DNA of 64,000 nucleotides, from IMG/VR virus record IMGVR_UViG_3300036985_003382, positions 1 to 64,000 of that record, one strand, 5' to 3'. Within the stretch, counting starts at the first letter, position 1. Every line of letters begins with the position of its first letter. Positions 7,904 to 26,056 of the stretch are shown piece after piece. The notes under the pieces are model-generated. The model was given only the letters and a program-made list of their open reading frames with translations, ran no database searches and was not told where the DNA came from. This stretch comes from a virus. The translations under genes were made by a program, and so were the position numbers.

Positions 7904-8443
7904 ATGGCTAACCAATTTAAATCCGCAGATGAAGCAGCTGGCTACTTATTTGATGTAGCTATTCGCAAAGGTAAGGTAACGGCGAAACAAGAATATGAAC
8001 GACTATACACAAGCCTTCCTCAAGATCAACAAATGGCTTTCTATGCGTCTGTAAATAAAATATTAAACCAAAAAAACCTCCGGGATAACGAGGGTTTAGG
8101 TGATGCTAAAGTACAGCGTTATCGTGAAAAAGCAGCCAAGAACATGTCGGTTGATTATGACACAGAGTTCGCCCCTAAGTCGGAGCCTAAAGCCCCCTCT
8201 AAGCCCACGCAAGCCCCGTCAGCAGCACCTAAACCTGTAGCCAAGGAAGTTACTAAGCCAGCACCTGAGCCAGTCGCTAAGACTAAAACAGAACCAATGG
8301 AAGACGAGAAGGGATTTCGTCCATATAGCAAGCAGTCTATGAGTGGCTTATTAAATATCAAAGCTGATAACCCTGCTCCTAATAGCCGTGCAGCTATTGG
8401 TGGATCAACACTTAAAATGCCAGCATTTGTACCCAAAAAGTAA
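7904..8443 (+). CDS. Accessory protein with disordered middle and C-terminal LLNIK motif
   Basis: 179 residues from the ATG at 7904; an upstream TTG at 7880 would add eight residues but lies within the promoter. Residues 1-75 are helical (SADEAAGYLFDVAIRKGKV...), 85-135 are a Pro/Ala/Lys/Thr-rich linker, and residues 147-153 carry SGLLNIK, shared with other small proteins nearby. Function unknown; the motif and linker suggest a protein that is tethered to a partner. Confidence 0.75.
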   Translation: MANQFKSADEAAGYLFDVAIRKGKVTAKQEYERLYTSLPQDQQMAFYASVNKILNQKNLRDNEGLGDAKVQRYREKAAKNMSVDYDTEFAPKSEPKAPSKPTQAPSAAPKPVAKEVTKPAPEPVAKTKTEPMEDEKGFRPYSKQSMSGLLNIKADNPAPNSRAAIGGSTLKMPAFVPKK

Positions 8444-8445
8444 GA

Positions 8446-8451
8446 TATACT
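8446..8451 (+). promoter_or_regulatory. -10 box upstream of tRNA-Asn
   Basis: TATACT 10 bases before the tRNA 5' end, directly after the stop codon at 8443. A dedicated promoter for the tRNA is likely; no clear -35. Confidence 0.4.
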
Positions 8452-8461
8452 TACGGTACTT

Positions 8462-8533
8462 TCCTACTTAGCTCAGCGGTAGAGCCTCCGGCTGTTAACC
8501 GGATGGTCGCTGGTTCGATCCCAGCAGTAGGAG
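8462..8533 (+). tRNA. tRNA-Asn (anticodon GTT)
   Basis: Acceptor TCCTACT pairs perfectly with AGTAGGA; D arm GCTC-AGCGGTA-GAGC; anticodon stem TCCGG/CCGGA with loop CTGTTAA; T arm GCTGG-TTCGATC-CCAGC. No CCA is encoded. It reads AAC/AAU codons, which are frequent in the Asn-rich tail genes. Confidence 0.95.
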
Positions 8534-8539
8534 TATAAT
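8534..8539 (+). promoter_or_regulatory. -10 box TATAAT
   Basis: Directly after the tRNA-Asn discriminator base, 28 bases before the ATG at 8567, with a TTAGGAGA ribosome site between. Gives the following gene its own promoter. Confidence 0.45.
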
Positions 8540-8566
8540 CGCGTCATTAAGGTTAGGAGACATGTT

Positions 8567-8866
8567 ATGGCTAAAACAGCGACGTATGATGTTCAGGCGG
8601 GTCAGGCACTTGCCACTGAGTCGGCTAATAAGCGCGATGCAAGCAGGACAAAGCCCAGTAATATTCAGCGTGAAATGGGCGAAGGATTACGTCGTGCAAC
8701 GCAAAGGAACAATACGGCTAAGATAGAGAGTAAAGCATCTGCGTATGTAACTCAACGTGGCATGATGGATGCTCAAGAAGCTTCTTATGATCGCATGAAG
8801 AATAGCCCAAAACCTAAAGCAGTAGCAGCTGGTAAGTCGTACTCTAAGTTGTTAAATATTAAGTAG
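8567..8866 (+). CDS. Small basic protein ending in SKLLNIK
   Basis: 99 residues, Lys/Arg/Ala/Thr/Gln-rich, helical or disordered, no known domain. The very C-terminus is YSKLLNIK, matching SGLLNIK of the protein encoded at 7904 and SKLMGIKK of the one at 9504. TTAGGAGA is well placed before the ATG. The basic body and shared tail would suit a packaged or capsid-associated protein, which is inference. Confidence 0.75.
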   Translation: MAKTATYDVQAGQALATESANKRDASRTKPSNIQREMGEGLRRATQRNNTAKIESKASAYVTQRGMMDAQEASYDRMKNSPKPKAVAAGKSYSKLLNIK

Positions 8867-8987
8867 ATTTCCCCATGCATGCAAACGCACCGGGAAAGCG
8901 GTAGTATTAATTCGCCACCGAGAGGTGAGCTTTGAAAGAACAGAAAACTCCCTTCTGTCCCGACAAATTCGTACTCTGCAAACAGAA
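8867..8987 (+). ncRNA. Candidate structured RNA or 3' UTR
   Basis: No gene on either strand. Two compact hairpins are visible: CACC-GAGA-GGTG with a GNRA-type loop (about 8920-8931), and ACAGAA/TTCTGT with a 7-base loop (about 8940-8958). They precede a strong intrinsic terminator (8988-9016). Could be an independent small RNA or the 3' end of the upstream mRNA. No match to hammerhead, tmRNA or tRNA patterns was seen. Confidence 0.35.
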
Positions 8988-9016
8988 AAGACCAGTCAGC
9001 CACACTGGTCTTTTTT
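8988..9016 (+). terminator. Intrinsic terminator
   Basis: AAGACCAGT (8988-8996) and ACTGGTCTT (9004-9012) form a 9-bp perfect stem with a 7-base loop, followed by TTTT and read into by TTTTTT. Classical rho-independent form, rightward. Confidence 0.85.
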
Positions 9017-9019
9017 GGC

Positions 9020-9025
9020 TATAAT
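9020..9025 (+). promoter_or_regulatory. -10 box TATAAT
   Basis: Lies four bases after the terminator, 17 bases before the ATG at 9043, with TAGGAGA as ribosome site between. Transcription restarts here after termination. Confidence 0.45.
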
Positions 9026-9042
9026 GGCATAGGAGATCTACC

Positions 9043-9465
9043 ATGCCACAACAGGATTACAACAAAAATTTCACTAGACTTCCGGATAGCAATCTTAAAA
9101 ATATCCGCAAAGACGCAAAAGAAAAGAACGCCTTTTTAGAATCTGTTCGCCCAGAAGTGCCTGATGAAGTAGACTCAAAAATTAAATCAATACCATTTGT
9201 TGGGAGTTTTATATCTAGTGCTGTACGCGGTGTAGCTAAGAAAATACAAGCACCAATTGATGATGCTCGTAAAGCTAACAGGCGAGTTGAAAATCAAGCT
9301 TGGAATGAAACATTTAAACGACAAGAAATCAAAAACGCTAAACAAGATAGTGGATTAATTAAACAGGTTTTGGGTATTGAAAACGACCCAAATGAGTATG
9401 GCAAAACAGCCCTTGGTAATCCATATAAACCACCAGCCAGAGTTCGTGACATAGGGGTAAAGTAA
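9043..9465 (+). CDS. Hypothetical basic protein
   Basis: 140 residues, basic, with a weakly hydrophobic stretch (FVGSFISSAVRGVAKKI, residues about 51-67) and DSGLIKQVLGIENDP near residue 106, a looser version of the S-x-L-x-GI motif shared by neighbours. Ribosome site TAGGAGA. No family recognised. The amphipathic stretch could contact membrane or protein. Confidence 0.7.
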   Translation: MPQQDYNKNFTRLPDSNLKNIRKDAKEKNAFLESVRPEVPDEVDSKIKSIPFVGSFISSAVRGVAKKIQAPIDDARKANRRVENQAWNETFKRQEIKNAKQDSGLIKQVLGIENDPNEYGKTALGNPYKPPARVRDIGVK

Positions 9466-9507
9466 ATGCCAAGCGCTATTGCAAGGAAGGCGGCAAGACA
9501 CCGATGA
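9466..9507 (+). CDS. Possible 13-residue leader peptide
   Basis: ATG directly after the previous stop (TAAATG) opens a 13-codon frame, MPSAIARKAARHR, whose TGA overlaps the next ATG as ATGA. It contains the AAGGAAGG ribosome site of the next gene, so it may only be a by-product; a coupling leader is possible. Confidence 0.3.
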   Translation: MPSAIARKAARHR

Positions 9508-9863
9508 ATGATCCACTGCGTCCTGATGAACGCCGACTTATAAACTACCATCGTGCAAACCTAGCAAAAGGTGGCATGAAAGATGGTAACAACATTACGA
9601 CCTTTAGGGGTGTGCGATTTGGTATTGGTGACACGGAAGATGGAGAAACGTTGTATGCACCAAGGTATTTTAATAACCGTATAAATAATGACGAAGAAAC
9701 TATTGCTCATGCAAAAAAAACTGGGTTATACGCTCGCTATCCTACTGTTAAAGCAGCGAAAGATGCTGAGTATAAACTGCATGAAATTATGAATAGGGAT
9801 ACCAATAAGTACATAGATGCTAAACGTGCTCCACTATCTAAGTTAATGGGTATAAAAAAGTAA
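9504..9863 (+). CDS. Hypothetical protein with GIGDTEDGE motif and SKLMGIKK tail
   Basis: 119 residues. The middle has FRGVRFGIGDTEDGETLYAPRYFNN and TGLYARYPTVKAAKDAEYKLHEIMNRD, a pattern I have seen in small virion-gene-cluster proteins of aquatic phages, without a known role. It ends in LSKLMGIKK, matching the C-terminal motif of other proteins here including the scaffold candidate. Start chosen at the ATG preceded by AAGGAAGG. Confidence 0.75.
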   Translation: MNDPLRPDERRLINYHRANLAKGGMKDGNNITTFRGVRFGIGDTEDGETLYAPRYFNNRINNDEETIAHAKKTGLYARYPTVKAAKDAEYKLHEIMNRDTNKYIDAKRAPLSKLMGIKK

Positions 9864-9869
9864 TGTACC

Positions 9870-9880
9870 TACAGTATAAT
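9870..9880 (+). promoter_or_regulatory. Promoter with extended -10, TACAGTATAAT
   Basis: TACAGTATAAT resembles TACGGTATAAT at 11547 and at the right edge. It ends 7 bases before the 5' end of tRNA-Leu, so the tRNA would start at or next to +1. No -35 recognised. Confidence 0.5.
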
Positions 9881-9887
9881 AATTTAG

Positions 9888-9970
9888 CCCCCAGTTGGTG
9901 AAAAGGTAGACACGACGGACTTAAAATCCGTTTCCGCAAGGAGTACAGGTTCGACTCCCGTACTGGGGAC
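9888..9970 (+). tRNA. tRNA-Leu (anticodon TAA)
   Basis: Acceptor CCCCCAG with CTGGGGA (one C-A mismatch at the end pair), D arm with GGTAGAC, anticodon stem ACGGA/TCCGT with loop CTTAAAA, a long variable arm (TTCCGCAAGGA) typical for Leu, T arm ACAGG-TTCGACT. Reads UUA, a codon that is very common in this AT-rich genome. No CCA encoded. Confidence 0.93.
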
Positions 9971-9973
9971 TTT

Positions 9974-10046
9974 GTCTGCGTAGCTCAGCGGATAGAGCAA
10001 CTGCCTTCTAAGCAGTTGGCCACAGGTTCGAGTCCTGTCGTAGACG
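9974..10046 (+). tRNA. tRNA-Arg (anticodon TCT)
   Basis: Acceptor GTCTGCG/CGTAGAC (one G-T pair), D arm GCTC-AGCGGATA-GAGC, anticodon stem ACTGC/GCAGT with loop CTTCTAA, T arm ACAGG-TTCGAGT-CCTGT. Reads AGA/AGG. Three bases after tRNA-Leu, so co-transcribed with it. Confidence 0.95.
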
Positions 10047-10059
10047 TTGGAGGAGTAAC

Positions 10060-10347
10060 ATGAATTCAATGGGTCCAGTCAGAACTGTAATGCTTGCAAT
10101 CTGTAACGATTCTGATGTTGGTGTTATACAAAATGAAAACAAAACATTAACAATAGAATGGATGCGTAAAAATAGTGGTCATATTAACACACAATTAGTG
10201 ACTGACATTGCAGAAGCTGCGATATTATTAGATGCTGTTGAGGCAAGTGGATTTAAAGTTCCATATAGGTTTATTAAAGACCTTGCAATCAAAGCAATAA
10301 GTGAATTAATTGAGGGACGAGACGATGGTAATCTTAAAGAAGAGTAA
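10060..10347 (+). CDS. Small protein, tandem paralogue 1
   Basis: 95 residues. The pattern SDVGVIQNENKTLTIEW followed by GFKVPYRFIKDLAIKAISELIEG is repeated in weaker form in the next gene (SDVEVVQVSPTEYVI ... LRIPAKWVNDLAMVTINSLMEK). So the two arose by duplication. GGAGGAG ribosome site. No known domain; a small alpha/beta protein. Confidence 0.75.
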   Translation: MNSMGPVRTVMLAICNDSDVGVIQNENKTLTIEWMRKNSGHINTQLVTDIAEAAILLDAVEASGFKVPYRFIKDLAIKAISELIEGRDDGNLKEE

Positions 10348-10558
10348 TCAATCTGATGTTGAAGTTGTGCAAGTATCGCCTACTGAATACGTAATTAAGC
10401 ATGGCACTACTGAAACTGCTCCAATGGCTATTGAGAATATGACAGTAGAAATCATCAAGCTGAAGCAAGTATTGCGTATTCCCGCTAAGTGGGTTAACGA
10501 TCTTGCGATGGTCACTATCAATAGTTTGATGGAAAAGTTAAACAACAAGGCGGAATAA
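10325..10558 (+). CDS. Small protein, tandem paralogue 2
   Basis: 77 residues from the ATG at 10325, preceded by GAGGGACGAG; the TTG start at 10310 would overlap the upstream gene more and is not needed. Same layout as the preceding gene, with which it overlaps by 23 bases. Directly upstream of dUTPase. Function unknown. Confidence 0.7.
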   Translation: MVILKKSNQSDVEVVQVSPTEYVIKHGTTETAPMAIENMTVEIIKLKQVLRIPAKWVNDLAMVTINSLMEKLNNKAE

Positions 10559-10560
10559 CT

Positions 10561-11025
10561 TTGGAATTACTTGAATTTCAATGGACTGGCAAGGATGAAG
10601 ATCTTAATGACTTCATCCCTGTTAGGAAGACTTCGCTTTCAAGTGGAGTTGATTTAAAAGCGTACATTAAAAAACCAATCGTGCTAAAGCGTGGTCAATC
10701 TCAAGTCATACCTACAGGATGGAAAGTAAAAATTCCAGAAGGTTATGAACTTCAAATCCGTTCTAGGAGTGGGCTTGCTGCAAAGCATGGCGTGTTTGTA
10801 TTAAATTCACCCGGCACAATTGACGCAGACTACCAAGGTGAGCTAGGTGTTATCCTGCACAATGCTAATGAAGAACAGTTCATTGTTGTGGGCAAGATGG
10901 CAATTGCACAGTTAGTTATGTGTCCAGTTGTACTGCCAGAGATCAAAGTGATACAGACCGGTGATTTGTTTGCAGAAACTACAGTGCGTGGTACTGGTGG
11001 ATTTGGATCAACAGGATCATTCTAA
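10561..11025 (+). CDS. dut: dUTP diphosphatase
   Basis: 154 residues, normal length for the trimeric family. It hydrolyses dUTP to dUMP and pyrophosphate, lowering uracil misincorporation and feeding dTMP synthesis. Visible motifs: 1 SSGVDLKAY (about 27-35), 2 RSRSGLAAKHGV (about 69-80), 3 GTIDADYQGELGVIL (about 86-100), 5 RGTGGFGSTG at the C-terminus. The start is a TTG with AAGGCGG seven bases upstream; no ATG fits the family's N-terminus. Stop overlaps the next ATG as TAATG. Confidence 0.95.
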   Translation: MELLEFQWTGKDEDLNDFIPVRKTSLSSGVDLKAYIKKPIVLKRGQSQVIPTGWKVKIPEGYELQIRSRSGLAAKHGVFVLNSPGTIDADYQGELGVILHNANEEQFIVVGKMAIAQLVMCPVVLPEIKVIQTGDLFAETTVRGTGGFGSTGSF

Positions 11026-11345
11026 TGAACAACAATCATTACAGGAAGCACAAGATTCAAGCTGTGCATTGCGCGTGGGAATGGGACCTGTCATGGGAAG
11101 CGTTTAGTGCTGTTAAGTACATTGAACGCGCTGGAACTAAAATGGGTTCCACTTATAACGATGACATGCTTAAGGCAGTGTGGTATTTAGTTGCAGCTAT
11201 TACTCAGAGTGATATTACGGCTGAGCGTATTGCGCGTGATGTAGAAGAAACACTAGGCAAAGAAAAACCGTCTGCTTTTAACAAGATGAAGAAGCAAGAG
11301 TGCCAATGCCCTGAGTGCGCTAAAGATTTAAACAAACAACTTTAA
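11025..11345 (+). CDS. DUF3310-like protein
   Basis: 106 residues. HYRKHKIQAVHCAWEWDLSWEAFSAVKYIERAG followed by DMLKAVWYLVAAI is the pattern of the phage DUF3310 family, often called nucleotide-kinase-like without biochemical proof. The C-terminus carries CQCPECAKDL, a possible metal-binding addition. Coupled to dut by TAATG, which agrees with a nucleotide-metabolism pairing. Confidence 0.85.
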   Translation: MNNNHYRKHKIQAVHCAWEWDLSWEAFSAVKYIERAGTKMGSTYNDDMLKAVWYLVAAITQSDITAERIARDVEETLGKEKPSAFNKMKKQECQCPECAKDLNKQL

Positions 11346-11503: not shown

Positions 11504-11546
11504 ACCTTAGTTTACTTCAACAACTAAAGATATGCATTTACTGTAT

Positions 11547-11557: not shown

Positions 11558-11572
11558 AAAACGGAGGACATT

Positions 11573-12227: not shown

Positions 12228-12479
12228 ATGGGAGTAGTAAAGAAGTACCAAAATCCGTCTGGCGGTTTAAACGCTGCTGGTCGTGCATATTACAATAGAA
12301 CTACCGGTTCTAACTTAAAGCCACCTGCACCAAACCCTAAGACAAAATCTGACGCTGGTCGCAAAGCTTCATTCTGTGCGCGTATGTCTGGAATGAAAGC
12401 TAAAAATACATCTAGTAAAACTGCCAGTGATCCTAATAGCCGAATTAATAAATCGCTTCGCGCATGGAATTGTAACTGA
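12228..12479 (+). CDS. DUF6321-like protein
   Basis: 83 residues: NPSGGLNAAGRAYYNRTTGSNLKPP, then FCARMSGMKAKN, ending in INKSLRAWNCN. This Gly-Arg-rich opening with FCARMSGM and a final R-x-WNC is the pattern of DUF6321, common in environmental phages, function unknown. GAGGTG ribosome site. Couples to the next gene by TGATG. Confidence 0.85.
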   Translation: MGVVKKYQNPSGGLNAAGRAYYNRTTGSNLKPPAPNPKTKSDAGRKASFCARMSGMKAKNTSSKTASDPNSRINKSLRAWNCN

Positions 12480-13243
12480 TGGCAGAAAATCAAAACCCCC
12501 GACGATGGAAAGTTAAAAGCTCTGCATACTTTGGTACTCCGGGTGTTAAAGATGCGACCAATGAGGCCGAGCGTAAAAAATATGCTCTTGAAGGCGGAGA
12601 TGTAACTGCCCTTGGCGATCGTGTGGGCAAAGGTGACATTGCTGTACCTAAGAACATTCCACTAGGCACAGTATTTTACATTCCAAATTATGGATGGGGT
12701 GTTGCGCGTGATCACGGTGGAGCCATTGTAGGCAATAGGATTGACGTAGCAACAGGCGGTGTTGTTGGTGGGAAGATTAACCCACAGGCTGAGAAAGATG
12801 CTAAGCAGTGGGGAAAGAAAGATCAAACTGTCTATGTCTTTCCAAAGGGATATCAAATCCCAACCGATCGGGCACCACCACAAGCGTATTTAAATGACAC
12901 AAAGAATGCTCCAGTAGCAGCACCTGTAAATAAACCAGCACAACCAAGACGTGCTCCGGGTTCTCCAATTGTTGTACAAGCCCCTAAGTCACCACTAGCA
13001 CCAATGCCAGCACCACGTCAAGTGTCTGCTGTAGAGCCACCAGTACAACAACCTATGGGTCAAGTATTTGGCAACCCGCAATCTACAATCTCCCAGCAAG
13101 TTAATGCTGATGCAGCAGCTGAACAACCGCTTGTTGCGACGTCAATGAATACATTAAGTCCATACTTGCAAATGATGCAAGAAACTGATTTAGCAAAAAA
13201 ACTATCTGCAAATATTCCATACTATAATCAAAGAGTAGGTTAA
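12479..13243 (+). CDS. 3D-domain protein, possible peptidoglycan-active virion protein
   Basis: 254 residues. Residues about 10-115 match the 3D (MltA C-terminal-like, double-psi barrel) domain: IPLGTVFYIPNYGWGVARDHGGAIVGNRIDV, with Asp78 and Asp89 in place. The first of the three family aspartates is missing (AVPKNIPLG instead of AVDP-type). Residues 130-205 are a Pro/Ala-rich linker and the end is helical. The domain occurs in lytic transglycosylases and cell-wall proteins, so local wall opening at entry is plausible. No signal peptide. Confidence 0.8.
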   Translation: MAENQNPRRWKVKSSAYFGTPGVKDATNEAERKKYALEGGDVTALGDRVGKGDIAVPKNIPLGTVFYIPNYGWGVARDHGGAIVGNRIDVATGGVVGGKINPQAEKDAKQWGKKDQTVYVFPKGYQIPTDRAPPQAYLNDTKNAPVAAPVNKPAQPRRAPGSPIVVQAPKSPLAPMPAPRQVSAVEPPVQQPMGQVFGNPQSTISQQVNADAAAEQPLVATSMNTLSPYLQMMQETDLAKKLSANIPYYNQRVG

Positions 13244-13280: not shown

Positions 13281-13481
13281 ATGGCAATGAGAGGTAAGGC
13301 TCCAGCAAGAGGCAAGGGAGCATCGTTAGCAGCATTATTAGGTATGGCATCTGGTGGAGGAAAGCCTAAGCCAGCAAGCCGTCCAGCAGGTAAGAAGAAG
13401 TCTGCTAAAACAGCACCACCAACCGGAAGACCAATGCCACCAATGGGGCCAATGCCACCAATGGGACCAATGGGAATGTAA
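13281..13481 (+). CDS. Low-complexity Pro/Met/Gly-rich small protein
   Basis: 66 residues: a basic, Ala/Gly-rich N-terminus (ARGKGASLAALLGMASGGG) then PPTGRPMPPMGPMPP repeats. TAGGAG ribosome site well placed. The short SLAALLGM segment recalls the S-x-L-L-x-I motif of other small proteins but is weaker. Probably disordered; function unknown. Confidence 0.65.
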   Translation: MAMRGKAPARGKGASLAALLGMASGGGKPKPASRPAGKKKSAKTAPPTGRPMPPMGPMPPMGPMGM

Positions 13482-13494
13482 CAGGGATTGAAAT

Positions 13495-16400
13495 ATGGCA
13501 TCATTATTATCTAGCTTAGTTCGTGGAACTTCACCAGTCAGAAGACCAGAAGATGAAACAGTGACGCCCGGAGGAGTTGCTCCTGCGCAACCTCCGGTGT
13601 CTATTCCACCTACTGCTCAACCAGTTCCTCAAGCAGCTCCACCATCAAGGGATTTAGCATCTGAGCCATTAATACCATCTATGGATGTTGGACCAGCCAT
13701 GTTTGATCCATCAAAGTTAGATTTTGGTGCCTTATTTCAAAATGCTTTACTTAAGTCTCAGCCATCTGCACCTACTACTACTGTTGATACAGCACAAGGA
13801 CCACGCGTATTAGCTGGCAGTACGCCAGCACAAGATATTACACAGATTAAAAGATCTGATTTTAAAATCGAAGATATATCAGCAGATGCAAAAGGACTAG
13901 GAAAGTTTTTAACTGACTCTGGTGGGGGAACTTATAAATCTGGTTTAGGTTTGATTGATGATATGCAAACGTGGTTTAACAAGACTACGCGCACAGGCAT
14001 GGGTGAAACACCTATGTCTCCACTTACAGCAGGTACAACCAGAGATGAATTATCTGGCGATAGCCCATTACGTAAGTTGGTTGGATATGCAGCTTCATTA
14101 AAGAACTCTGATGCGCCATACGCCAAGGAACAAGCTAAGGCATACTCTGATGCAATCCTTTGGCTGACTAAATCCATTGAGAACAACGATCAAAGAGCAT
14201 ATACAGCAGCAAAAGCAAACATTGACTCTCTTACTAAGCTAAACACAGAAGACTTTGCTAGATCTGGAACTAGATCCCAATTTGCTAGAAATGGTCAGTT
14301 AGTCAGTGCGTATGTAACAGGCAAAACCATACAACAAGCTGAGATAGATAAAGAAGCTGCATCTACACCAGCAATACAACGTAAGGTTGTAACAAGTGCA
14401 GTTTTTGACTATGTGCAAGACAGATTTAAAGACTTAAGAACACAAGCTGAATCCGGAGGTGAAGACGCACGGAGAGCACAGCGTACGTTAGATGTTTTTG
14501 GTCAATCATTTAAAGATATCTATGCACCAGTAACTGAGGGCACTCGTGATGCTAGATTAGCAGCATTTGAATCATCACCACAAGGTCGAGCACTGATTAC
14601 AGACGCGTTTGATAACTTGTCAGGTCTAGGATATTTTAATAGACCTAAGTTCAAAAGCATTGTAGATAGATCAAAGGCGGGAGACATTAATCTTACGCCT
14701 GCTGATATCAAATCTATTATTGGTGAAACACAATATAAAAAACGACTCGGTTCTACTATTGATGTTGCTGATGATTTACCTGATGACGCAATCCAAGCCC
14801 TAAAACTTACACCAGATGACCCACAACGAATAAGCGGTGTCTATAGAGGTTTAACACCACAAGGCATTGGGGCACTACAGGGCTTTGGGGATACTGATCA
14901 ACCATTAGGTGAGCCACTAAGAGCAGGTCAGCCAGACGCTAGAGAATTTGATATTTCGCAGAACGTTCGTTCAACTGATACCTCTACTGGTATGACTATC
15001 ACTCCAGTTACTGATAGCAAAATTAAAACTCGTGGTGAGTTAGCAGGAGCTATGGTTTCAGGCCTTGGGTTAAATACAGAACAAGCCGGAGAAATTGCTA
15101 AGCGTGTATTTACGGACACAACAGATCAACAAAGCTTTATAAACGCAGCTACCGTATCGTATGACATACAAGATGATGTCTTAACTAAAATTGCATCTGA
15201 CGCTGGAACTATACGTGTTGCCAATACTGGTGGACAAACAACAGGAGGCCGCGCTAAAAGTACATATGCTTTAGTTAGCGATGTATTTGCCGCCGCTAAT
15301 GATGTATTGCCACAACAAACATTTACAGAATCTTCATTAACACGACGTCAATGGGATTTGCGTAAACGTGTATTAAATGACGCTGCTTCACAAGCTCAAC
15401 AAATTGAAGGATCTGGTGCAGATGACGCAGTAAATGTAAAACGTTTCTATACAAGCGCAGATGGCAAACCAGATTTTACAAAACCAATTGTTCCAGATGC
15501 AAAAGATCAAGTAGGCAGGATTGCACTTCTTAAAGCAATGATTGATAAGGCCGCTGCTCCAGATGGCGCTGCATATAGACGTCAATTAGAGTTGCTGGCC
15601 AGAAGTGCTGTTGATGGACAACCATACACTGGCAGCATCAATATGAATCCAAGAGCGTTCCAAGGTCTTGTCAGTCTCTATGCATCACGTGTTGAAAGTG
15701 CTGCAGATGCTGATAAATCTGGGAAAACAGACAGTTGGTTCCAAAGCAAATTTGACATTAAGCCAAGTGAACTATCTAAGGTTGATAACCGAGATGCGTT
15801 CATGATGAAACTGGTAACAGCAAGCCCATCAGCGTTAAGGACATTTGCTAGTTCACTAGGAGCAGCGGATGCAACTGTTACACGTGGATTAATTCCAACT
15901 ACTACTGCTGGTCAAGTAATAGATACCGCTGCTGGTATTCCGGGTGACATACAGGGTGGTGGGCGCAAGAATAGTAAAACCGAAAATCAAGCTCTAGGAA
16001 ATATAGATCGAGCTACAAAAATTGTTGGCGGTGGATTTGAATCTGCTTTAGATGCAGTTTTAAAGTATAACGATGATCCTTCAACTGTAGATGTTCCACA
16101 CACAAAAAAACAGTATGGCGAGGCGTTACTTGCCGTATTTGACAAAACATTAAATGAGTCAATGAAAGGCGTTTCATTTAAAGCTGGAGACAAAGCAAAG
16201 TTTAATAGTTTACGTGAAGCTATTCGCACTGAAATTATTAAACAAGCTGACACAGAATGGACTGCTGGAACTGTAACTAAAGACGATCTTAATGCAATCC
16301 TTAAACCGTTAGCTTCACAAATTCTAGGAGTTGACGCGCAAAAGACAAAAGCATTACCTGCGGTAGATAAACCTGAACCAAGTGTTGTCAAAGACCTTGA

Positions 16401-19400
16401 AGCTGGTAAGTCTGCTTATGACAAAGCCAAGGCTGAACTTGGCGGAGACCTTGGAACAAAAACAGACATTGCAGCTGAACTTACATCTGACGAATCTTCT
16501 AAATATCCTGCGTATCAAGCATTTCTTGGAAAGTTAAAAGAAAGGCGTTTAGTCAATTATGGTCGTATTACCAAAGAAGTAGAAACACGTCAGTTAGGTA
16601 TTACGACGGCTGGTGCAAAGTTAAATAGATTAAAGCAAGAAGGTAAGATCAATACACCTGAATTTAATACAGCATTAGATGCATATAACAAAGCACACGA
16701 TGACTACAATGCTAAACGTTCAGAATTAGATACAGCGTTTGATTTAGTTAGTCAACCAATATCACTTGATGATATGGACAAATTAATAAATACAAAAGAA
16801 TTAGCAGTAATTGGAAGCGCTTCTAGGTCTGAAGCATTTACTAAACTAAGAGAAAAGATTTCAAATGGTGGATGGGCATCATTAACACCAACAGAACGCG
16901 CAAGTTATTATCGTGAATCACTCACTAGATATTTTACTAGCGAACGCGGTAACGCAATCAGTCCTGTAACTCGTAGACGTTTGGCCTTTAGATCATTTAT
17001 TGATTCTCCTCAAGGAGCAAACTGGGCACCTGTTAAATTAACAAGTGAACCGGGTGCTAATATAGAAAAATTAAAAGAGGACGCGTACACACCATCATAT
17101 TTAACGGAAGTTACAAATGAAAAAGGTGATGTTATTGCACATAAGCTCAATCCTAATATTTCATTCAAATATGTACCAAAGTTAAATAAAGAAACAAACC
17201 GGATTGATTCATTAGATATTGTTGCTGAAGAAAGAATTACTGGCGGCGACAACAGACGAACAGTTACAAAAAGACAGTTTGTTGTAACTGGCCGTGAAGT
17301 AGAAATTATGATGGCCCTTAATGACATGAAAGACATTAAGGATGAATTTGCTGCTATTGAAGCAAATGTATTAAAACTTGATAGTGTTAAACAAAAAGTA
17401 ACTGACACTAAACAAGCTGCAAAGTTTGGCTTAGTGCAAGATAAAGATAGTGGATATAAGTATCGAGACGGTGGATCATTTAGTCAGCTATTGCAAAGTT
17501 TAGTTGAATTTGAAAATGCTCCTAGTTTAACTAAAAACCAAGAGACGGTAAGAGCCGCATTATTGGCTGAAGGAGAAAAGTATTTAACGCAAATAGGTTC
17601 AAAAGATTCAATTAATAAGGTAGTAAACAAATACGCTAAACGTGCTGGCGCTGCAACTCGGATGATTAAATTCCAAGACGTTTTGCGCGAACGTCTTGCT
17701 GATCGAATTGATGCCTTTAGTAAAAACGGGAGAACACCAAATTTAGCTGATTTACAACAAGACATAAATGATTATTTTGATGGCGGTAAGATTGACGAAG
17801 TCGATAATGACGCCAGACGTACTGAAATGGCAGCTTTGCAAAAGACAGATGTTGCTGGAATTTTACGTGCAGATAAATACGTAGAGAAAACATTTGGAAC
17901 AAACGGACCATTACAAATATCAGCAGCTCAAAACACTAAGGGTAATCGAGCAATAACCATGCCCGTTGCAAAAGCTTATGATGAGTTATTGCAACTGAGA
18001 AACAAAATTGATGGTGGTGATCAATCTCCAGAAACAGAGTTTAAGTTTTTACAACTAAGAGATAAATTTGTAGAGCACACTGGAAAATCAATTAGTGATC
18101 TCGATAGAGCATTTACTATCAGTAACGTTGAATCTGCAAATAATTTAGTTACTACTGGCGGTAATAAACAACGAGCATCTGGTGAAAACTTTGGTATTAG
18201 ATTTGGCGAATACGCTCAAAGATATATACCAATTAAAACACCACGTCCGGGATTTGAAACTGAAGCAGATTTTAAAAAGTTTAACAAAAAGATGACGGTG
18301 AATGAAAAGAAGCGCGTTGATGCAGAAAAGGAACTAGGTAAGACTCTTGGGTTTGACACCACTAACTACAGTACACGTAGTAGTGTATGGACTGACTTGA
18401 ACACAAAATGGAAGAACTCAACACCTAATCAATGGGATTCATGGATTTCTGGTGTACCTGAAGAAGTTAGAAATAGAGTTCTTGAACATTATACACGTTG
18501 GTCAACAATGGGTGGAGAGGGTAAAAATGATGCACTTGGAAATCAAGGGCAAGCAGGATGGAGGGCTATTGATTGGGCAGTTGACGGGAATGGCAATGTA
18601 ACGCCTGATGCAAAAAAAGTACTATCTTCAATTACTCAATGGGCTTCAGTAAGTAGAGTCAAGTTTGATAGCAATGATCTTAAGGATTTATCAACAGACA
18701 TTTTACGGATGTATACACTTGAAAACAGTAACACCAAAGTAACTAGAGAGGATTTAGCAAAGTTTAAAAGCCCATTGGTAAGAGGTGTATTGCGACAGCG
18801 AATTAATCCCGGACCCGGCATAACAATTGGTGATCCGTTTACTCAATTTATTAATGCTATTGATCCAACTCCACTGCAAGGTGCTGCGCAAATTGTTGCA
18901 CAAAAACAGAAAACGGCACTGGCATTACCACAAGCGCGACGCGTAGTAAATCAAAAACTTAAAACAGATGCTGATTTTAGGTCTGCTGTTAATTCTGTTT
19001 TACGAGCAGAAGGTGAACGTTATGTAATTACCGATCAAGGAAAAATTGCAAAACGTTCTTATTCCGCTAAAGATCCAGTAGAACCAAAGGGGTTATCTGG
19101 TGATGATTTATTCAAATGGAGAGTTGAAAATAAACAACTAACGTATTTAGATTATTTACGTTACTCTGCTGATGTGCATGACACGGCTACTCAACCAAGA
19201 GACTTTTTGATTGATGGTAAAACTGTAACGGTTCCAGTTAGAGATGTAAAAAATGGACCTGAAGGCATGTTGAAATTCTTACAGAAACGTATGTCACGTG
19301 CTGAACCTAAGTCTGTCACAAACTTTGAGGCCCCTAAGTCTGTTGTCGCATTACCACCAAATGTTGATCCATTGCGACCGGGTAGACAGATAGGATTCCG

Positions 19401-19758
19401 GTATCAGGGTGCAGATTACTTTATTGGTGCAAAAGAATACGCATCGCTTGTGCAAGATATAAATGACGGAAAGATCAGCACAAAAGATGTAAGGGGTCTT
19501 GTTACATCATTAGTTTCTAAACTTAGATATAGAACATATGGTGCAGACTTAAAGAAACCATTATTACTTGGAGTAAAAGCAGTCGGTGAAGGTGAAGCTG
19601 ACGTAAAGAAAATTCCAAAAGAAGTTCAAGAAAAAATGATTGAAGAAGCAAAGAAAGAAGGCTTCAATATCAAAAAGAGTATTAAGGGTGGAATACCGGG
19701 ATTCTTTAGTGCGATGATTGCAGCTATTATTGCAGAGTGGAATAGCAAGGAAGAGTAA
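13495..19758 (+). CDS. Large protein (2,087 residues), probable internal virion protein
   Basis: No enzyme motif recognised. The first 90 residues are Pro/Ser/Thr-rich and start MASLLSSLVRGTS, similar to the portal's SKLSSMVRGNK. The rest is mostly alpha-helical, charged and Lys/Asp/Ala-rich, with long helical stretches around 1030-1130. The C-terminus (GGIPGFFSAMIAAIIAEW) has a short hydrophobic helix that could insert in a membrane. Size, helical nature and place in the virion block suit an internal or ejected protein. Its position upstream of terminase, away from the other ejection-type genes, is unusual. Confidence 0.7.
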   Translation: MASLLSSLVRGTSPVRRPEDETVTPGGVAPAQPPVSIPPTAQPVPQAAPPSRDLASEPLIPSMDVGPAMFDPSKLDFGALFQNALLKSQPSAPTTTVDTAQGPRVLAGSTPAQDITQIKRSDFKIEDISADAKGLGKFLTDSGGGTYKSGLGLIDDMQTWFNKTTRTGMGETPMSPLTAGTTRDELSGDSPLRKLVGYAASLKNSDAPYAKEQAKAYSDAILWLTKSIENNDQRAYTAAKANIDSLTKLNTEDFARSGTRSQFARNGQLVSAYVTGKTIQQAEIDKEAASTPAIQRKVVTSAVFDYVQDRFKDLRTQAESGGEDARRAQRTLDVFGQSFKDIYAPVTEGTRDARLAAFESSPQGRALITDAFDNLSGLGYFNRPKFKSIVDRSKAGDINLTPADIKSIIGETQYKKRLGSTIDVADDLPDDAIQALKLTPDDPQRISGVYRGLTPQGIGALQGFGDTDQPLGEPLRAGQPDAREFDISQNVRSTDTSTGMTITPVTDSKIKTRGELAGAMVSGLGLNTEQAGEIAKRVFTDTTDQQSFINAATVSYDIQDDVLTKIASDAGTIRVANTGGQTTGGRAKSTYALVSDVFAAANDVLPQQTFTESSLTRRQWDLRKRVLNDAASQAQQIEGSGADDAVNVKRFYTSADGKPDFTKPIVPDAKDQVGRIALLKAMIDKAAAPDGAAYRRQLELLARSAVDGQPYTGSINMNPRAFQGLVSLYASRVESAADADKSGKTDSWFQSKFDIKPSELSKVDNRDAFMMKLVTASPSALRTFASSLGAADATVTRGLIPTTTAGQVIDTAAGIPGDIQGGGRKNSKTENQALGNIDRATKIVGGGFESALDAVLKYNDDPSTVDVPHTKKQYGEALLAVFDKTLNESMKGVSFKAGDKAKFNSLREAIRTEIIKQADTEWTAGTVTKDDLNAILKPLASQILGVDAQKTKALPAVDKPEPSVVKDLEAGKSAYDKAKAELGGDLGTKTDIAAELTSDESSKYPAYQAFLGKLKERRLVNYGRITKEVETRQLGITTAGAKLNRLKQEGKINTPEFNTALDAYNKAHDDYNAKRSELDTAFDLVSQPISLDDMDKLINTKELAVIGSASRSEAFTKLREKISNGGWASLTPTERASYYRESLTRYFTSERGNAISPVTRRRLAFRSFIDSPQGANWAPVKLTSEPGANIEKLKEDAYTPSYLTEVTNEKGDVIAHKLNPNISFKYVPKLNKETNRIDSLDIVAEERITGGDNRRTVTKRQFVVTGREVEIMMALNDMKDIKDEFAAIEANVLKLDSVKQKVTDTKQAAKFGLVQDKDSGYKYRDGGSFSQLLQSLVEFENAPSLTKNQETVRAALLAEGEKYLTQIGSKDSINKVVNKYAKRAGAATRMIKFQDVLRERLADRIDAFSKNGRTPNLADLQQDINDYFDGGKIDEVDNDARRTEMAALQKTDVAGILRADKYVEKTFGTNGPLQISAAQNTKGNRAITMPVAKAYDELLQLRNKIDGGDQSPETEFKFLQLRDKFVEHTGKSISDLDRAFTISNVESANNLVTTGGNKQRASGENFGIRFGEYAQRYIPIKTPRPGFETEADFKKFNKKMTVNEKKRVDAEKELGKTLGFDTTNYSTRSSVWTDLNTKWKNSTPNQWDSWISGVPEEVRNRVLEHYTRWSTMGGEGKNDALGNQGQAGWRAIDWAVDGNGNVTPDAKKVLSSITQWASVSRVKFDSNDLKDLSTDILRMYTLENSNTKVTREDLAKFKSPLVRGVLRQRINPGPGITIGDPFTQFINAIDPTPLQGAAQIVAQKQKTALALPQARRVVNQKLKTDADFRSAVNSVLRAEGERYVITDQGKIAKRSYSAKDPVEPKGLSGDDLFKWRVENKQLTYLDYLRYSADVHDTATQPRDFLIDGKTVTVPVRDVKNGPEGMLKFLQKRMSRAEPKSVTNFEAPKSVVALPPNVDPLRPGRQIGFRYQGADYFIGAKEYASLVQDINDGKISTKDVRGLVTSLVSKLRYRTYGADLKKPLLLGVKAVGEGEADVKKIPKEVQEKMIEEAKKEGFNIKKSIKGGIPGFFSAMIAAIIAEWNSKEE

Positions 19759-21079: not shown

Positions 21080-22808
21080 TACACGCGCAACACCCAAAGC
21101 GTTTAAGAAGTTTGTCCGTCCCGGAAAAGATTTAAGTGCGGCATTACTTGAAGCATTAAGCACCGAGTTACATGAAGCCGCGTCTACAGGGTCATTTGAT
21201 GGTGGAACTGCGTATCCTATTAGCGGACATGACTTACCTTATGCAGACTGGTTACGTGTATATGCCCCTAATGCAGCAAGTTCAAAAATGGGTGAGCACC
21301 ACATACGTGCATGGAACTGGGCTGAAAGTATAGAGACTGGTAACCCACCACCTGCACTTATTGAGTGTTGGTTTAGAGGTGGAGGAAAGTCTACTACTAT
21401 GGAATTAATTTCCAGTAGGTTAGCAGTTAAGGCCTCTAGGAGATTCCTGTTATACGTGTGTGCTACGCAAGACGCCGCTAACCGACACGTCAGTGATATA
21501 GCAGGAGTAATGGAGCGCTGTGGCATTGAACGAGCAGTAAACCAGTATGGCTTCTCTCGTGGTTGGAATGCGCAAAAATTGCGAACAGCAAATGGTTTTA
21601 ATATCTTAGCTTTTGGATTAGATACAGGAGCACGTGGCGTAAAGCTAGATCACCTTCGTCCAGACATGATTATTTTAGATGACATTGATGAATTAGATGA
21701 TTCCGTCAATGCTGTTGAAAAAAAAATTAGAACTATTACTGCAACTATTCTTCCTGCTAAAAGTACAGACTGCGCCATTGTGTTTGTGCAGAATAGAATT
21801 CACGCTAACAGTGTTATGTCTAGAGTTCTTTCCGGTGAACTGGATATGTTGCAAGACAGAATTCAATCACCAATCATTCCAGCAATTGAAGATCTTATTT
21901 ACGAACCAGTAGAAAAAGAAGATGGCCGCATGGGATGGAAAATTATTTCGGGCAGAGCTACATGGGATCACAAAAATCTAGAAGTCTGTCAAAAAGAAAT
22001 TGATGACTTTGGTTTGATTTCGTTTCTACGTGAGTGCCAGCATGAAGTTGGAGTTGGTGGAATATTCTTTCCGCAATTTAAACAGATTGATTCGACAGGT
22101 AAACCGTGGCACGTTGTTGATCACATTGAGGTTCAGCCGTGGTGGAGATTCTGGGGAAGCCATGACTTTGGTACTGGTGCACCAGCCTGTTTTATCTTGT
22201 TTGCATCTGATGAACGTGAGAATGTTTACGTTATAAGTGAATGGTATTACGCTGGAAAAACTAGCAGCATGCAAGTTGAAGGTGTTTTAGAGTTACTTGC
22301 AAAACATAAAATTGCTGAACCTCGTGTCAAGTCAAATTTGCATGGAGCTTATAATACTAAGTTAGAGGCAATTGCGTTTGACTGGGCAAGCACTTTCCCT
22401 CCTGAAAAAGTTGATCAACGAATTGGCGAATATCCTGTTGAGATTTGGTGGGAGCGGGGGCTTCCTGCCGTACGTGCAGTTAAAGACCGCAAGGCTGGCT
22501 GGAGTAGAATTAAAGAATGGTTGATTGCAACAGAGTCAGTTAATGGTGAGGTTAGGCCAAAAATTGTTATTAATCGCAACACATGTCCTAACTTAATTAA
22601 ACAGTTAGCGGACACAATGACACACACTAAAGATGGTGATGAGATTGACTCAGGCACACGCAATGATCATGCTATCGATAGTTTTAGATATGGACTAATG
22701 TGGCGTGAGCATCCAGTGCGTTGCCCGGAAGTTGAAGAGAAAGAACGCAAAAACAAAAATGCAAAGCCAAACTGGTTGAAGGAAAGGAACCTTGACGAAT
22801 GGTTGTAA
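21060..22808 (+). CDS. terL: Large terminase subunit
   Basis: 582 residues. ATPase: Walker A FRGGGKST at 105-112 and Walker B MIILDDID at 203-210. Nuclease: GSHDFG around Asp370, and a C-terminal NDHAIDSFRYGL acid motif. The protein translocates DNA into the prohead with ATP and cuts the concatemer. The start lies inside terS with a perfect AGAGGAGG site ten bases upstream. N-terminal 90 residues have no recognised role. Confidence 0.95.
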   Translation: MQKLSINTRATPKAFKKFVRPGKDLSAALLEALSTELHEAASTGSFDGGTAYPISGHDLPYADWLRVYAPNAASSKMGEHHIRAWNWAESIETGNPPPALIECWFRGGGKSTTMELISSRLAVKASRRFLLYVCATQDAANRHVSDIAGVMERCGIERAVNQYGFSRGWNAQKLRTANGFNILAFGLDTGARGVKLDHLRPDMIILDDIDELDDSVNAVEKKIRTITATILPAKSTDCAIVFVQNRIHANSVMSRVLSGELDMLQDRIQSPIIPAIEDLIYEPVEKEDGRMGWKIISGRATWDHKNLEVCQKEIDDFGLISFLRECQHEVGVGGIFFPQFKQIDSTGKPWHVVDHIEVQPWWRFWGSHDFGTGAPACFILFASDERENVYVISEWYYAGKTSSMQVEGVLELLAKHKIAEPRVKSNLHGAYNTKLEAIAFDWASTFPPEKVDQRIGEYPVEIWWERGLPAVRAVKDRKAGWSRIKEWLIATESVNGEVRPKIVINRNTCPNLIKQLADTMTHTKDGDEIDSGTRNDHAIDSFRYGLMWREHPVRCPEVEEKERKNKNAKPNWLKERNLDEWL

Positions 22809-22939
22809 TAGAAATTATTCAAACAGTTGGTATCTATGGATTAGTTTTTTTAACTTATATATCATTAAAGTTACTAAAAGAGATTCGTGACGTAAAGATA
22901 TACTCTAAAGAGAAGTATGATCGCGAGGGCTGGTTATAA
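22799..22939 (+). CDS. Small single-span membrane protein, 46 residues
   Basis: Frame ATG 22799 to TAA 22939 between terL and portal. It reads MVVIEIIQTVGIYGLVFLTY followed by ISLKLLKEIRDVKIYSKEKYDREGWL: one hydrophobic helix and a charged tail. It overlaps terL by ten bases and the portal ATG as TAATG, filling the gap exactly. This arrangement strongly suggests a real gene. Role unknown; a membrane peptide between terminase and portal is odd. Confidence 0.7.
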   Translation: MVVIEIIQTVGIYGLVFLTYISLKLLKEIRDVKIYSKEKYDREGWL

Positions 22940-25170
22940 TGTACGACATCAGTAAATTGTCAAGTATGGTTCGCGGCAACAAGCCAAGGATGTCTGCGTT
23001 TGAAAAGCCAGACAGTGCCGGTACTATTGGCGCTGAGCTGTTGAAGGATCCTAGATTAGAGGATAAATCTAATTTAGATCTTGATATACAACCAAAAGGT
23101 TGGAAGGTTACTGAAGATTCTGATCCTGAAGAAGCTCGTAAAATTACAAAGTTTGTTCAGACACAATTTGACAGTGCTCAAAAAGCCCGTAACGAAATGG
23201 AACTAGAGTGGGCGTTAGCAACAGCTTTTTTTGAAGGAAGACAATGGCTAAGAGTTGCAAGTCAAGGACGTAACTTAATTAGGTTACAAAATCCAAACGA
23301 GCCAAATCGTTATATGACGGTTAATAAAATTCGTCCGTTAATTGATGGAGTTGTTGGCAAGCTAACTCAATGTGCTCCTGACGCAACCGCAGTTCCGTTA
23401 TCAGATAGTCCTTCAGATAGAGCTGCAAGTGATGAGGCAAACTATATTGCTAAACACTACAATAGAAAATTTCAAAGAGAGACGCAGACAAAAGAGCGTG
23501 TGCGTTGGGCATGTGTCTGCGGGACGTCTTATCTAAAAGTGTTTTGGGATAGCCGTCGTTCACAAGTAGTTCCACAGCTAGACGTTGACGGAGAAACTGT
23601 AGTTGGTCATACGGAAATGCGGGTAGGAGATGTAGTTGAGCAAATACTTCCGGCATTTGATGTATATGTTGATCCATCGGCAAAACGAGATGATGATGTT
23701 CGTTGGATTATTCATGCAATGATCAAACCACTATCGTGGTTTATAGATTCATATGGTGAAATTGGAAAAAAAGTAGAGCCTGACGCAATGACAGGACAAT
23801 ACTCTGGTTATGTAGATGCGTATCTTGACGGTGCTAACTCTGGAGGTAGAGGCTGGGTTCCTGCTGCATCTGCTAATACTACAACATCTGAGCGTAGGAA
23901 AAACGCCGCTGTTGTTTATGAGTATTGGGAAAAGCCAACACAATTATATCCAGAAGGTAGATACATTGTTTCAACTCAGTCAACACTTCTTTATGCTGGT
24001 GTATGGCCATATAAAAAGAAAGATGCATTTCCATTTATTCCATTACGATGGCAACCACGCGCAGGTACGCCGTATGGATATAGTCTTGGATTTGATTTAG
24101 TATCTTTACAAAGTACTTACAATCGCATTTACAGTAGACTACTTGAGCAGTTTGAAGCTCAAAAAGATTATTTACTAATTGAAAAACTTTCTTCTGTTGG
24201 AGCAGATGCTTACGACAAAGAGAGTGACACGGTTGAGGACAAGCACCGCATTTACCGTAAAGTGTATTACGATCGTGGAAGTAGACCGCCAGCGGTTCAA
24301 CGCGCTCCGGGTATTGGCTCAGATCTTTTTCCGCTATTGCAAATGCTTGAAAAAGACATGATGGATGTCGCAGGACTTCATGATGTTAGTCAAGGAATGG
24401 CACAAGCAGGTACACCTGCTGAGTCAGTACGTTTATTGCAGAAGGCTGACAATACTCAGCATTCATATGTTCGAGCTGACATTGAAATTAGTAACGCTCT
24501 TATTAAAGAGTGGGAGGTTAGTTTAATTGAACAGTTTGCGATCGTCCCATTTATTGGAAACATCGAGGGAGGAATGCTCCCCAGAGACCAGATACAGCAG
24601 GGCGTTATGCGGTTTGATGCTTTGCGCAATGGCGGTCGGTATCGGATTGTTTATGTACCGGGGTCCAGTATGGATGAAGGGCCAGACCAAAGATTAAACA
24701 AGTATGCCACGCTACGGCAAATGGGTATCTTTGGTGACCCAATGGATCCGGCAACCAATAGGTTGTTTATTCAGTTGGTCAACATGCCTGAGACAACTAA
24801 GATTCTTGACCACTTAGATGAACAAGAGGCCAAGATGGCCGAAGCGCAGCAACAACAAATGATGATGCAGCAACAAGCGCAGATGGCACAGCAAGGTGAA
24901 CAACAACAGATCATGCAGTTCAATATGGAGATTGAACAAGCTAAGGCTAGTATTGAAATACAACTTGAACAAGCTAAGGCTGGCATTGAGATTGAAAAGA
25001 TTAAGGCACAAATTGCCGCACAACTTGAGGCAGACATTGCACTTGAAACTGCAAAGGCTGGACTTGAGGCGCAATCCAATGAGGATTACGCAATGGTTGA
25101 TATTGGAAAACAGTTTGCTATGAATGATTTCGGCAGTGCATCTGGCACTGATCAAATTGAAGGAGTATAG
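22939..25170 (+). CDS. Portal protein
   Basis: 743 residues, in the range of P22-type portals. The N-terminal half has WALATAFFEGRQWL, NEPNRYMTVNKIRPLIDGVVGKL and YEYWEKP segments typical of podovirus-type portals that form the dodecameric DNA entry ring. Residues about 620-700 are a Gln-rich coiled coil (EAQQQQMMMQQQAQM ... EIEQAKASIEIQLEQAKAGIEIEKIKAQ). The N-terminus SKLSSMVRG resembles that of the 2,087-residue protein. Start set by TAATG overlap. Confidence 0.93.
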   Translation: MYDISKLSSMVRGNKPRMSAFEKPDSAGTIGAELLKDPRLEDKSNLDLDIQPKGWKVTEDSDPEEARKITKFVQTQFDSAQKARNEMELEWALATAFFEGRQWLRVASQGRNLIRLQNPNEPNRYMTVNKIRPLIDGVVGKLTQCAPDATAVPLSDSPSDRAASDEANYIAKHYNRKFQRETQTKERVRWACVCGTSYLKVFWDSRRSQVVPQLDVDGETVVGHTEMRVGDVVEQILPAFDVYVDPSAKRDDDVRWIIHAMIKPLSWFIDSYGEIGKKVEPDAMTGQYSGYVDAYLDGANSGGRGWVPAASANTTTSERRKNAAVVYEYWEKPTQLYPEGRYIVSTQSTLLYAGVWPYKKKDAFPFIPLRWQPRAGTPYGYSLGFDLVSLQSTYNRIYSRLLEQFEAQKDYLLIEKLSSVGADAYDKESDTVEDKHRIYRKVYYDRGSRPPAVQRAPGIGSDLFPLLQMLEKDMMDVAGLHDVSQGMAQAGTPAESVRLLQKADNTQHSYVRADIEISNALIKEWEVSLIEQFAIVPFIGNIEGGMLPRDQIQQGVMRFDALRNGGRYRIVYVPGSSMDEGPDQRLNKYATLRQMGIFGDPMDPATNRLFIQLVNMPETTKILDHLDEQEAKMAEAQQQQMMMQQQAQMAQQGEQQQIMQFNMEIEQAKASIEIQLEQAKAGIEIEKIKAQIAAQLEADIALETAKAGLEAQSNEDYAMVDIGKQFAMNDFGSASGTDQIEGV

Positions 25171-25174
25171 TTAA

Positions 25175-26056
25175 ATGTCTGAAGAGATGGTGATGCGCAC
25201 CTCGGACTCACCAGCCGAGGCACCAGACACGCGGGGTTTTTCTCAGTTGCTTGTAGATAGTACTTCATACGCCAATGAAGATAATGGTGCACCGGCGTTA
25301 AATAGCACAGAAGAAACAGGTGATGTACAAGACTTTTCTTGGCTAGATGATCTAGTAGATACTACCCCCGATCCACAAGATGCAGTTAGGCAGCGTTTAG
25401 CAGAAACATTATCGGCTCAGCATACTCCGGAAAACGTCCCTTACGACCGATTTCGTGAAGTCAATGAGCAAGCAAAAGCTGCTAAAGAACAAGCTTCTAA
25501 CTATGAAAAATGGGCAGAGATTATTACTGCTCTTGAAGCCGATGGATATAAATCCGGCCAAGATTTAAAAGATGCTTGGGCAAGGCAACAAGAAGCAGCT
25601 AATGAAACTCAAATCCGTCAAAAGTATGTTGAGATGGCACAGGCCAACATCATGTCTAATGACGCAGCCCAAGTATCAGCCGATCTTGAAATTCAACGCA
25701 TGAAGTACGATCAGCTGGTTTCCCAAGTGGAAGCCGCTAATCGTGTCCAGAAAATGGATCAAGCTTATAAAGATTTTCCTTATGCACGACGTGGTGAACG
25801 AATTGTAAATAATTTAGTTCAACGTGGTATGGATCCTTTAGAAGCTGCCTCATATGTACATGAAGAAATTTCAAACATGGCAGAATCGCTTGTTCCAGAA
25901 TTAGCTTCATTATTTGAAGCACAGCAACGAGCACCAATTCCAATTGATACGTCGCAGTCAGCTCAACCATTAGTGCAAGACACTACTCCAACTCGTGGAG
26001 CTAGTGGAATTTTCTCAAGGCTAATGGGTATTAGTAAAAATTCATTTGGTGTATAG
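25175..26056 (+). CDS. Candidate scaffolding protein
   Basis: 293 residues between portal and capsid, the usual scaffold position. Acidic N-terminus, a long helical centre (NEQAKAAKEQASNYEKWAEIITALEADG ... QVEAANRVQKMDQAYKDF), and a C-terminus ending FSRLMGISKNSFGV. Scaffold proteins guide prohead assembly and bind capsid through a C-terminal helix. The end carries the same S-x-L-M-G-I-x-K motif as several small proteins at 8-10 kb. Family not recognised by itself; position decides. Confidence 0.8.
   Translation: MSEEMVMRTSDSPAEAPDTRGFSQLLVDSTSYANEDNGAPALNSTEETGDVQDFSWLDDLVDTTPDPQDAVRQRLAETLSAQHTPENVPYDRFREVNEQAKAAKEQASNYEKWAEIITALEADGYKSGQDLKDAWARQQEAANETQIRQKYVEMAQANIMSNDAAQVSADLEIQRMKYDQLVSQVEAANRVQKMDQAYKDFPYARRGERIVNNLVQRGMDPLEAASYVHEEISNMAESLVPELASLFEAQQRAPIPIDTSQSAQPLVQDTTPTRGASGIFSRLMGISKNSFGV

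Follow-up and report, generated by a model that had tools for sequence, protein, structure and literature searches.

Why, in a family of uncultured phages, should a short peptide near the end of the probable scaffold also be carried by several small, otherwise unrelated proteins? The question is raised by IMG/VR virus record IMGVR_UViG_3300036985_003382, from whose 66,165 bases a stretch of 64,000 (the window) was analysed. A preliminary description of the window, made from its letters, had pointed out the peptide S-x-L-L/M-N/G-I-K in the scaffold candidate and in small accessory proteins, and had proposed that it is a docking tail by which the latter are packaged or held by the partner of the scaffold. 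The shared tail is confirmed: it is enriched at C-termini, it is retained as protein bodies diverge, and the bodies that carry it are dissimilar. On balance, we favor the explanation that the docking tail of the scaffold, likely capsid-binding, is reused by unrelated basic accessory proteins for recruitment to the procapsid.

The tail in the scaffold and accessory proteins of the window

The proteins concerned and their tails are given below with their isoelectric points (pI).

25175-26056, plus strand: probable scaffold, 293 amino acids, acidic (pI 4.4), between the portal and capsid genes, with a helical body in its AlphaFold model
26012-26038, plus strand: FSRLMGISK, candidate docking tail of the scaffold
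26067-27134, plus strand: major capsid protein (phrog_212, E = 8.6e-29; PF20911, 30.2 bits), presumed partner of the tail
7904-8443, plus strand: accessory protein of family D, 179 amino acids, pI 9.6; relatives in contigs G019, G020 and G002, the position of the motif varying
8342-8362, plus strand: motif SGLLNIK of the family D protein
8567-8866, plus strand: accessory protein of family E, 99 amino acids, pI 10.2, terminus SYSKLLNIK
8840-8863, plus strand: tail YSKLLNIK, a pattern match
9043-9465, plus strand: accessory protein of family F, 140 amino acids, pI 9.7, with the looser LIKQVLGIE at 9355-9381; its G002 relative reads LRDLLGVKND
9504-9863, plus strand: accessory protein of family A, 119 amino acids, pI 9.7, the tail being present in all eight scan relatives
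9834-9860, plus strand: tail LSKLMGIKK, a pattern match

All five peptides quoted in the preliminary description are found at the positions it gave. When the open reading frames (ORFs) of at least 40 amino acids in all six frames of the window are searched with S.[LM][LM][NG]I, there are exactly four matches, one in the scaffold and three in accessory proteins. The motif lies 13 residues from the C-terminus in the scaffold, where SRLMGISK occupies 26015-26038, and 7, 8 and 33 residues from it in the accessory proteins. The earlier claim that the motif is C-terminal thus holds for SKLLNIK and SKLMGIKK, the final 7 residues of 8567-8866 and the final 8 of 9504-9863, and does not strictly hold for SGLLNIK, which sits 33 residues inside its protein; LIKQVLGIE is also internal. 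The family D ORF extends over 7880-8443, and its conserved start is probably the ATG at 7904 (MANQF).

The 293-amino-acid protein at 25175-26056 is probably the scaffold. A P22-like portal gene (22939-25170) precedes it and the capsid gene follows, and portal, scaffold, capsid is the usual gene order. With the last 16 residues removed, the scaffold and the four accessory proteins have no mutual blastp similarity at E <= 0.05, in agreement with their description as otherwise unrelated. In Pfam, PHROGs and NCBIfam, no described family matches an accessory protein of the window with a score above its cut-off or a convincing E-value. A domain of ejected phage proteins, considered for 9504-9863, did not appear in the scans and is not used here. 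The pI falls between 9.2 and 10.3 in all 22 accessory proteins listed, against 4.4 in the scaffold.

Conservation of the tail in scaffolds

The viral-contig scan yielded 23 relatives of the scaffold, and together with the window the motif is present in 24 of 24. From the 46 loci of the capsid-protein scan, L163 and L164 (gene start missing) were excluded before tails were read; in all 44 others the ORF directly upstream of the capsid gene, read by script, has [FIL][STG]x[LM][LM]GI near its end. The forms found include FSRLMGI, FSRMLGIR (at the exact terminus), ISQLLGIS and LTQLLGIS. In an alignment of 19 scaffolds, G285 and I286 never vary, and L or M fills columns 283-284 in every sequence. 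Pairwise identity is 73% over SRLMGI, compared with 48% in the helical body, 50% in the linker and 45% in the residues after the motif; two blocks are above the tail in conservation, the N-terminus MSEEMVMRT (25175-25222, 85%) and VPYDRFREVNEQAK (25436-25477, 93%). In the AlphaFold model of the scaffold, a long helical body is followed by a linker of low confidence and by a short helix over the motif, likewise of low confidence.

At locus L054 (about 12440-12610) the scaffold ORF loses its frame ahead of the tail, and LGSLLGITRGRGTL is readable in another frame. The terminase search gave five distant records with 27-30% identity across about one-third of the query; in the two regions inspected the protein before the coat gene ends DLSGGAR or DVSGAAR, and these records were set aside as uninformative for the tail.

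Retention of the tail in accessory families

Scans with alignments of families A, B and C recovered 8, 6 and 7 loci, and a recognizable tail is present in all 21. Twelve of these loci (five A, three B, four C) lie outside the query alignments and all of them have the tail, one contig very close to G007 entering the twelve three times. For B and C the patterns used in the search left the tail out; one of the two A patterns included it, and the A locus L211 lacks the A pattern that excluded it. The A family includes one member reading SNIMGMKK and another reading IKNLMGIKKTPL, so that tail positions drift. In family B all three aligned members have TNYGRLLGxKK, at an identity to the first member of 42-58% overall.

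At the gene place of 8567, contigs G019 and G020 encode a 93-amino-acid protein ending SYSKLLKFK, as compared with SYSKLLNIK in the window, and the G020 body has no similarity to that of 8567. Used alone as a query, the 8567-8866 sequence retrieved no relative. One genome (G007) has as many as three strict tails.

Enrichment over shuffled and control sequences

In shuffled window proteins S.[LM][LM][NG]I occurs 0.1 times on average, with a maximum of 2 in 300 shuffles, and 0.013 times within the last 40 residues. As this pattern is post hoc, derived from its own matches, tests independent of it were sought. The last 15 residues of distinct non-scaffold tails were counted in 24 family contigs, identical tails being counted once and 22 scaffold ORFs having been removed beforehand (one of these, in G017, has its tail in another frame). 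Genes were taken as greedy longest ORFs of at least 45 amino acids; some counted tails are not those of real genes and a few real genes are hidden, among them the 93-amino-acid protein of G019 and a 152-amino-acid protein of G012 ending MSAAMKIK. Control tails were taken from loci of unrelated phages, for which the widespread protein at 12228-12479 had served as bait.

The scaffold core [STGA].[LM][LM]GI matches 6 of 1167 family tails and 0 of 1125 controls (shuffle mean 0.108). The pattern generalized from scaffolds and followed by a basic residue matches 11 of the 1167 family tails and again no control tail, with a shuffle mean of 0.128 and a maximum of 2. A scoring matrix built from scaffold tails agrees with these counts and is weaker at low cut-offs: at a score of at least 9 it accepts 14 of 1199 family tails and 4 of 1155 controls (shuffle mean 1.9), and at a score of at least 13 it accepts 5 family tails and 0 controls (shuffle mean 0.23). 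The preliminary description had proposed a comparison with shuffled controls, and here the counts are far from equal (four window matches against 0.1; 11 family tails against 0.128).

The 11 matches span five body families, A (that of 9504), B, C, D (the G002 member only) and E (that of 8567), matches inside one family not being independent of each other. Without the last 16 residues there is no similarity between families at E <= 0.05 save a 30-residue match between C and D at 0.018, and family E itself is joined only by a weak match (0.002).

Surroundings of the accessory genes and other recurring motifs

Up to about 7.6 kb most genes lie on the minus strand, and between 7.9 and 57.4 kb most lie on the plus strand. 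The four accessory genes (7904-8443, 8567-8866, 9043-9465 and 9504-9863) are the first on the plus strand, ahead of the gene for a giant protein of 2087 amino acids. Among them or directly after them are genes for tRNA-Asn (8461-8534), tRNA-Leu (9889-9970) and tRNA-Arg (9973-10047). The window has two giant ORFs, at 13495-19758 (2087 amino acids) and 43780-56628 (4282 amino acids); the former has no match in PHROGs or Pfam, and the first 1407 amino acids of the latter have no NCBIfam match. Giant proteins in the window (13495-13560) and in ten other contigs open with MASLLSSL, MASFRSLLLGN or a similar sequence, in most cases ahead of a Pro-rich stretch, and this N-terminus is possibly a docking peptide of its own. 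An 83-amino-acid protein (12228-12479) is extremely widespread, a relative being encoded in 599 of 600 matched stretches of viral contigs among the matches listed.

Two further motifs recur. G-x-T-A-L-[GS]-[GN] is found in small late proteins that are mostly dissimilar to each other and has 0 matches in control phage genes; [ILVM]Q-x-[EGQ]-MA is found in several accessory proteins and has one control match. A small protein at 13281-13481 has an end rich in Pro, Met and Gly, and its AALLGM or SAMLGM, kept in six contigs, is scaffold-like and not C-terminal.

G-x-T-A-L-[GS]-[GN]: window 9043-9465 (from residue 120), plus strand; G002 24366, G007 2149, G008 62767 and G014 44594
[ILVM]Q-x-[EGQ]-MA: G008 62767, G013 700 (twice) and G012 8871-9329; a looser IQREMGEG in window 8567-8866, plus strand

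Weighing the explanations

The first proposal is supported in part. That scaffold and accessory proteins share a docking tail is well supported by its presence in all scaffolds read and at or near the end of several unrelated accessory proteins, by its retention as the bodies diverge and by its absence from control tails; the packaging of these proteins and their coat-protein partner are inferred. Several observations weigh against reuse of the tail for procapsid recruitment. Among the nine contigs longer than 60 kb (G000, G001, G002, G004, G006, G008, G014, G019 and G020), an accessory tail with a basic residue is present in four, or in seven if MRQMLGIKRK (G008) and SYSKLLKFK (G019, G020) are counted, leaving G004 and G014 with no credible accessory tail. 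The partial contigs of the distant clade yielded no accessory tail; several contigs are fragments, and absence from the short ones means little. Relatives of the family D protein (7904-8443) read KLIDVKAD and NFLGITAD, the only family in which relatives keep the protein and lose the motif. Some small neighbors of accessory proteins have no tail (G008 62767), a pI of at least 9.2 is reached by 37% of the called window genes of 54-280 amino acids, and the capsid model, with a pLDDT of 51.9, is not good enough for a pocket to be seen. Because of the exceptions in the long contigs, the distant clade and family D, the tail is to be regarded as constant within the scaffold and optional outside it.

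Doubtful ORFs at G006 23320, G004 36629 and G013 45223 were rejected as members, as was a repeat protein containing MSQLLKIEKKEH, whose internal repeats are of the same kind. Searches by tblastn with the capsid protein and with 9504-9863 had no match in 50,697 phage records, profile searches of the PDB with the capsid protein and scaffold gave nothing useful, and the best structural matches of the capsid model, largely phage capsids, are not significant.

Could the likeness arise from composition, ends rich in K, L and M looking alike by chance? Looser patterns do arise in this way, as pattern P2, which omits the basic residue, shows with 12 family matches, 1 control and a shuffle mean of 0.94, and look-alikes such as MSQLLKIEKKEH occur within the repeat protein noted above. 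We find chance barely credible, since it is contradicted by the counts against shuffles, internal positions and control phages, and since the tail is kept in B and C relatives that were found without using it. The tail might instead address a host or phage factor outside the head, a protease adaptor or chaperone for instance, and be shared because all these proteins are made late. Degradation or chaperone signals can be short hydrophobic and basic C-termini, which speaks for such a factor; the invariance in scaffolds and the near-absence from other late proteins would be left unexplained, and we hold it to be highly unlikely.

Docking in the head could also involve another partner, namely the portal, a giant internal protein or another procapsid component, which would place the accessory proteins at the portal vertex as part of an ejection core. 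Family C genes directly precede the giant gene, all accessory genes lie in a block upstream, and the giant proteins have a conserved N-terminus; on the other side, extracts of work on 80alpha describe a scaffold C-terminus that touches the capsid protein (PMC5644958), and a different partner seems to us unlikely. The same extracts describe a protein, CpmB, that competes with the 80alpha scaffold via a common C-terminal motif (PMC5644958), raising the idea that the proteins with the tail are not cargo and instead compete with or assist the scaffold, tuning the size or shape of the head or the time at which the scaffold is released. Several dissimilar proteins per genome, in a set that changes, are more readily understood as cargo than as a conserved assembly factor, making this role quite improbable.

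For the favored explanation, that accessory proteins reuse the scaffold tail, the following mechanism can be proposed. The tail, approximately [FYLMI]-[SGT]-x-[LM]-[LM]-[GN]-[ILMV]-[KR], would be the docking peptide of the scaffold for the growing head, and the docking site would most likely be a hydrophobic cleft that the major capsid protein has on its inner face. Unrelated basic accessory proteins would bind the same site through the same tail, placed at or near their C-termini, and would enter the procapsid alongside the scaffold as internal or ejected proteins. If the contact is of the 80alpha type, tail-bearing basic proteins would be drawn into the procapsid. The role of the scaffold and the precedents below point to the coat protein as the probable partner, with accessory proteins presumably packaged or held in the prohead, and a role for them inside the head is presumed on this basis. 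A bolder version, which we consider possible though doubtful, is that the tail is a modular cargo code, in which any late protein gaining the seven residues is loaded into the head and such proteins are freely swapped by the lineage. How phages without a recognized prohead protease choose what to co-package is little understood, and a portable tail shared with the scaffold can be tested with peptides; it could also help to pick out internal proteins when nothing else in a genome is recognizable.

Comparison with known systems

The comparisons below draw on extracts of the papers cited. In 80alpha, the scaffold gp46 and the SaPI1 protein CpmB have a common C-terminal RIIK motif; the last 16 scaffold residues, shaped as a helix and hook, occupy a capsid protein cleft, where CpmB, from the satellite, binds through the same motif (PMC5644958). 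A scaffold and an unrelated protein with a common C-terminal motif are found here as well. The systems differ in that RIIK is absent here, where tails read [LM][LM][GN][ILMV][KR], and in that CpmB is the protein of a satellite and redirects the size of the head, whereas here several dissimilar proteins belong to the phage itself.

In T4, variable basic internal proteins have a common short targeting peptide (PMC9026906, PMC5694885). The likeness is that of a short peptide common to variable basic proteins, their internal location being only presumed here. The T4 peptide is N-terminal, addresses the core and is removed by the prohead protease, while the one described here is C-terminal and shared with the scaffold. 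A PHROGs scan of 20 window proteins showed no protease family, and many late proteins had no match of any kind. Laboratory work has loaded cargo by means of C-terminal segments of the P22 scaffold (PMC9962691), which resembles our case in that such a segment brings other proteins into a shell; those are engineered fusions with a longer segment ending in a helix-turn-helix, whereas the present tail is natural and about 7 residues long.

Family 1 encapsulins load cargo on an HK97-fold shell through a short, usually C-terminal hydrophobic peptide, GGDLGIRK in T. maritima (PMC10960027, PMC8346489). A paper on the origin of encapsulins derives them from phages of the HK97 type; in its main text the word scaffold was not found (PMC8346489). 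The tails described here are likewise short, hydrophobic and C-terminal with a basic end, and GGDLGIRK resembles MLGIR and LMGIKK, a likeness of few residues that may be due to chance. Encapsulins are cellular compartments with enzyme cargo, in contrast to the phage head protein found here (phrog_212) beside a portal gene, and the accessory proteins of the window have no match to ferritin-like or peroxidase cargo in Pfam, PHROGs or NCBIfam. Were the modular code true, the likeness of RMLGIR, MLGIKKK and KLMGIKK to GGDLGIRK would suggest that encapsulin loading arose from scaffold docking on an HK97-fold shell.

In the titles and abstract openings searched, a coverage that most subscription journals fall outside, no description was found of a phage whose internal or cargo proteins bear the tail of its own scaffold. 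The tail works like the 80alpha/CpmB, T4 and encapsulin systems and is a member of none of them, because RIIK is absent, the T4 peptide is N-terminal, and neither shell nor cargo is of the encapsulin kind; it would offer a phage counterpart to the encapsulin targeting peptides.

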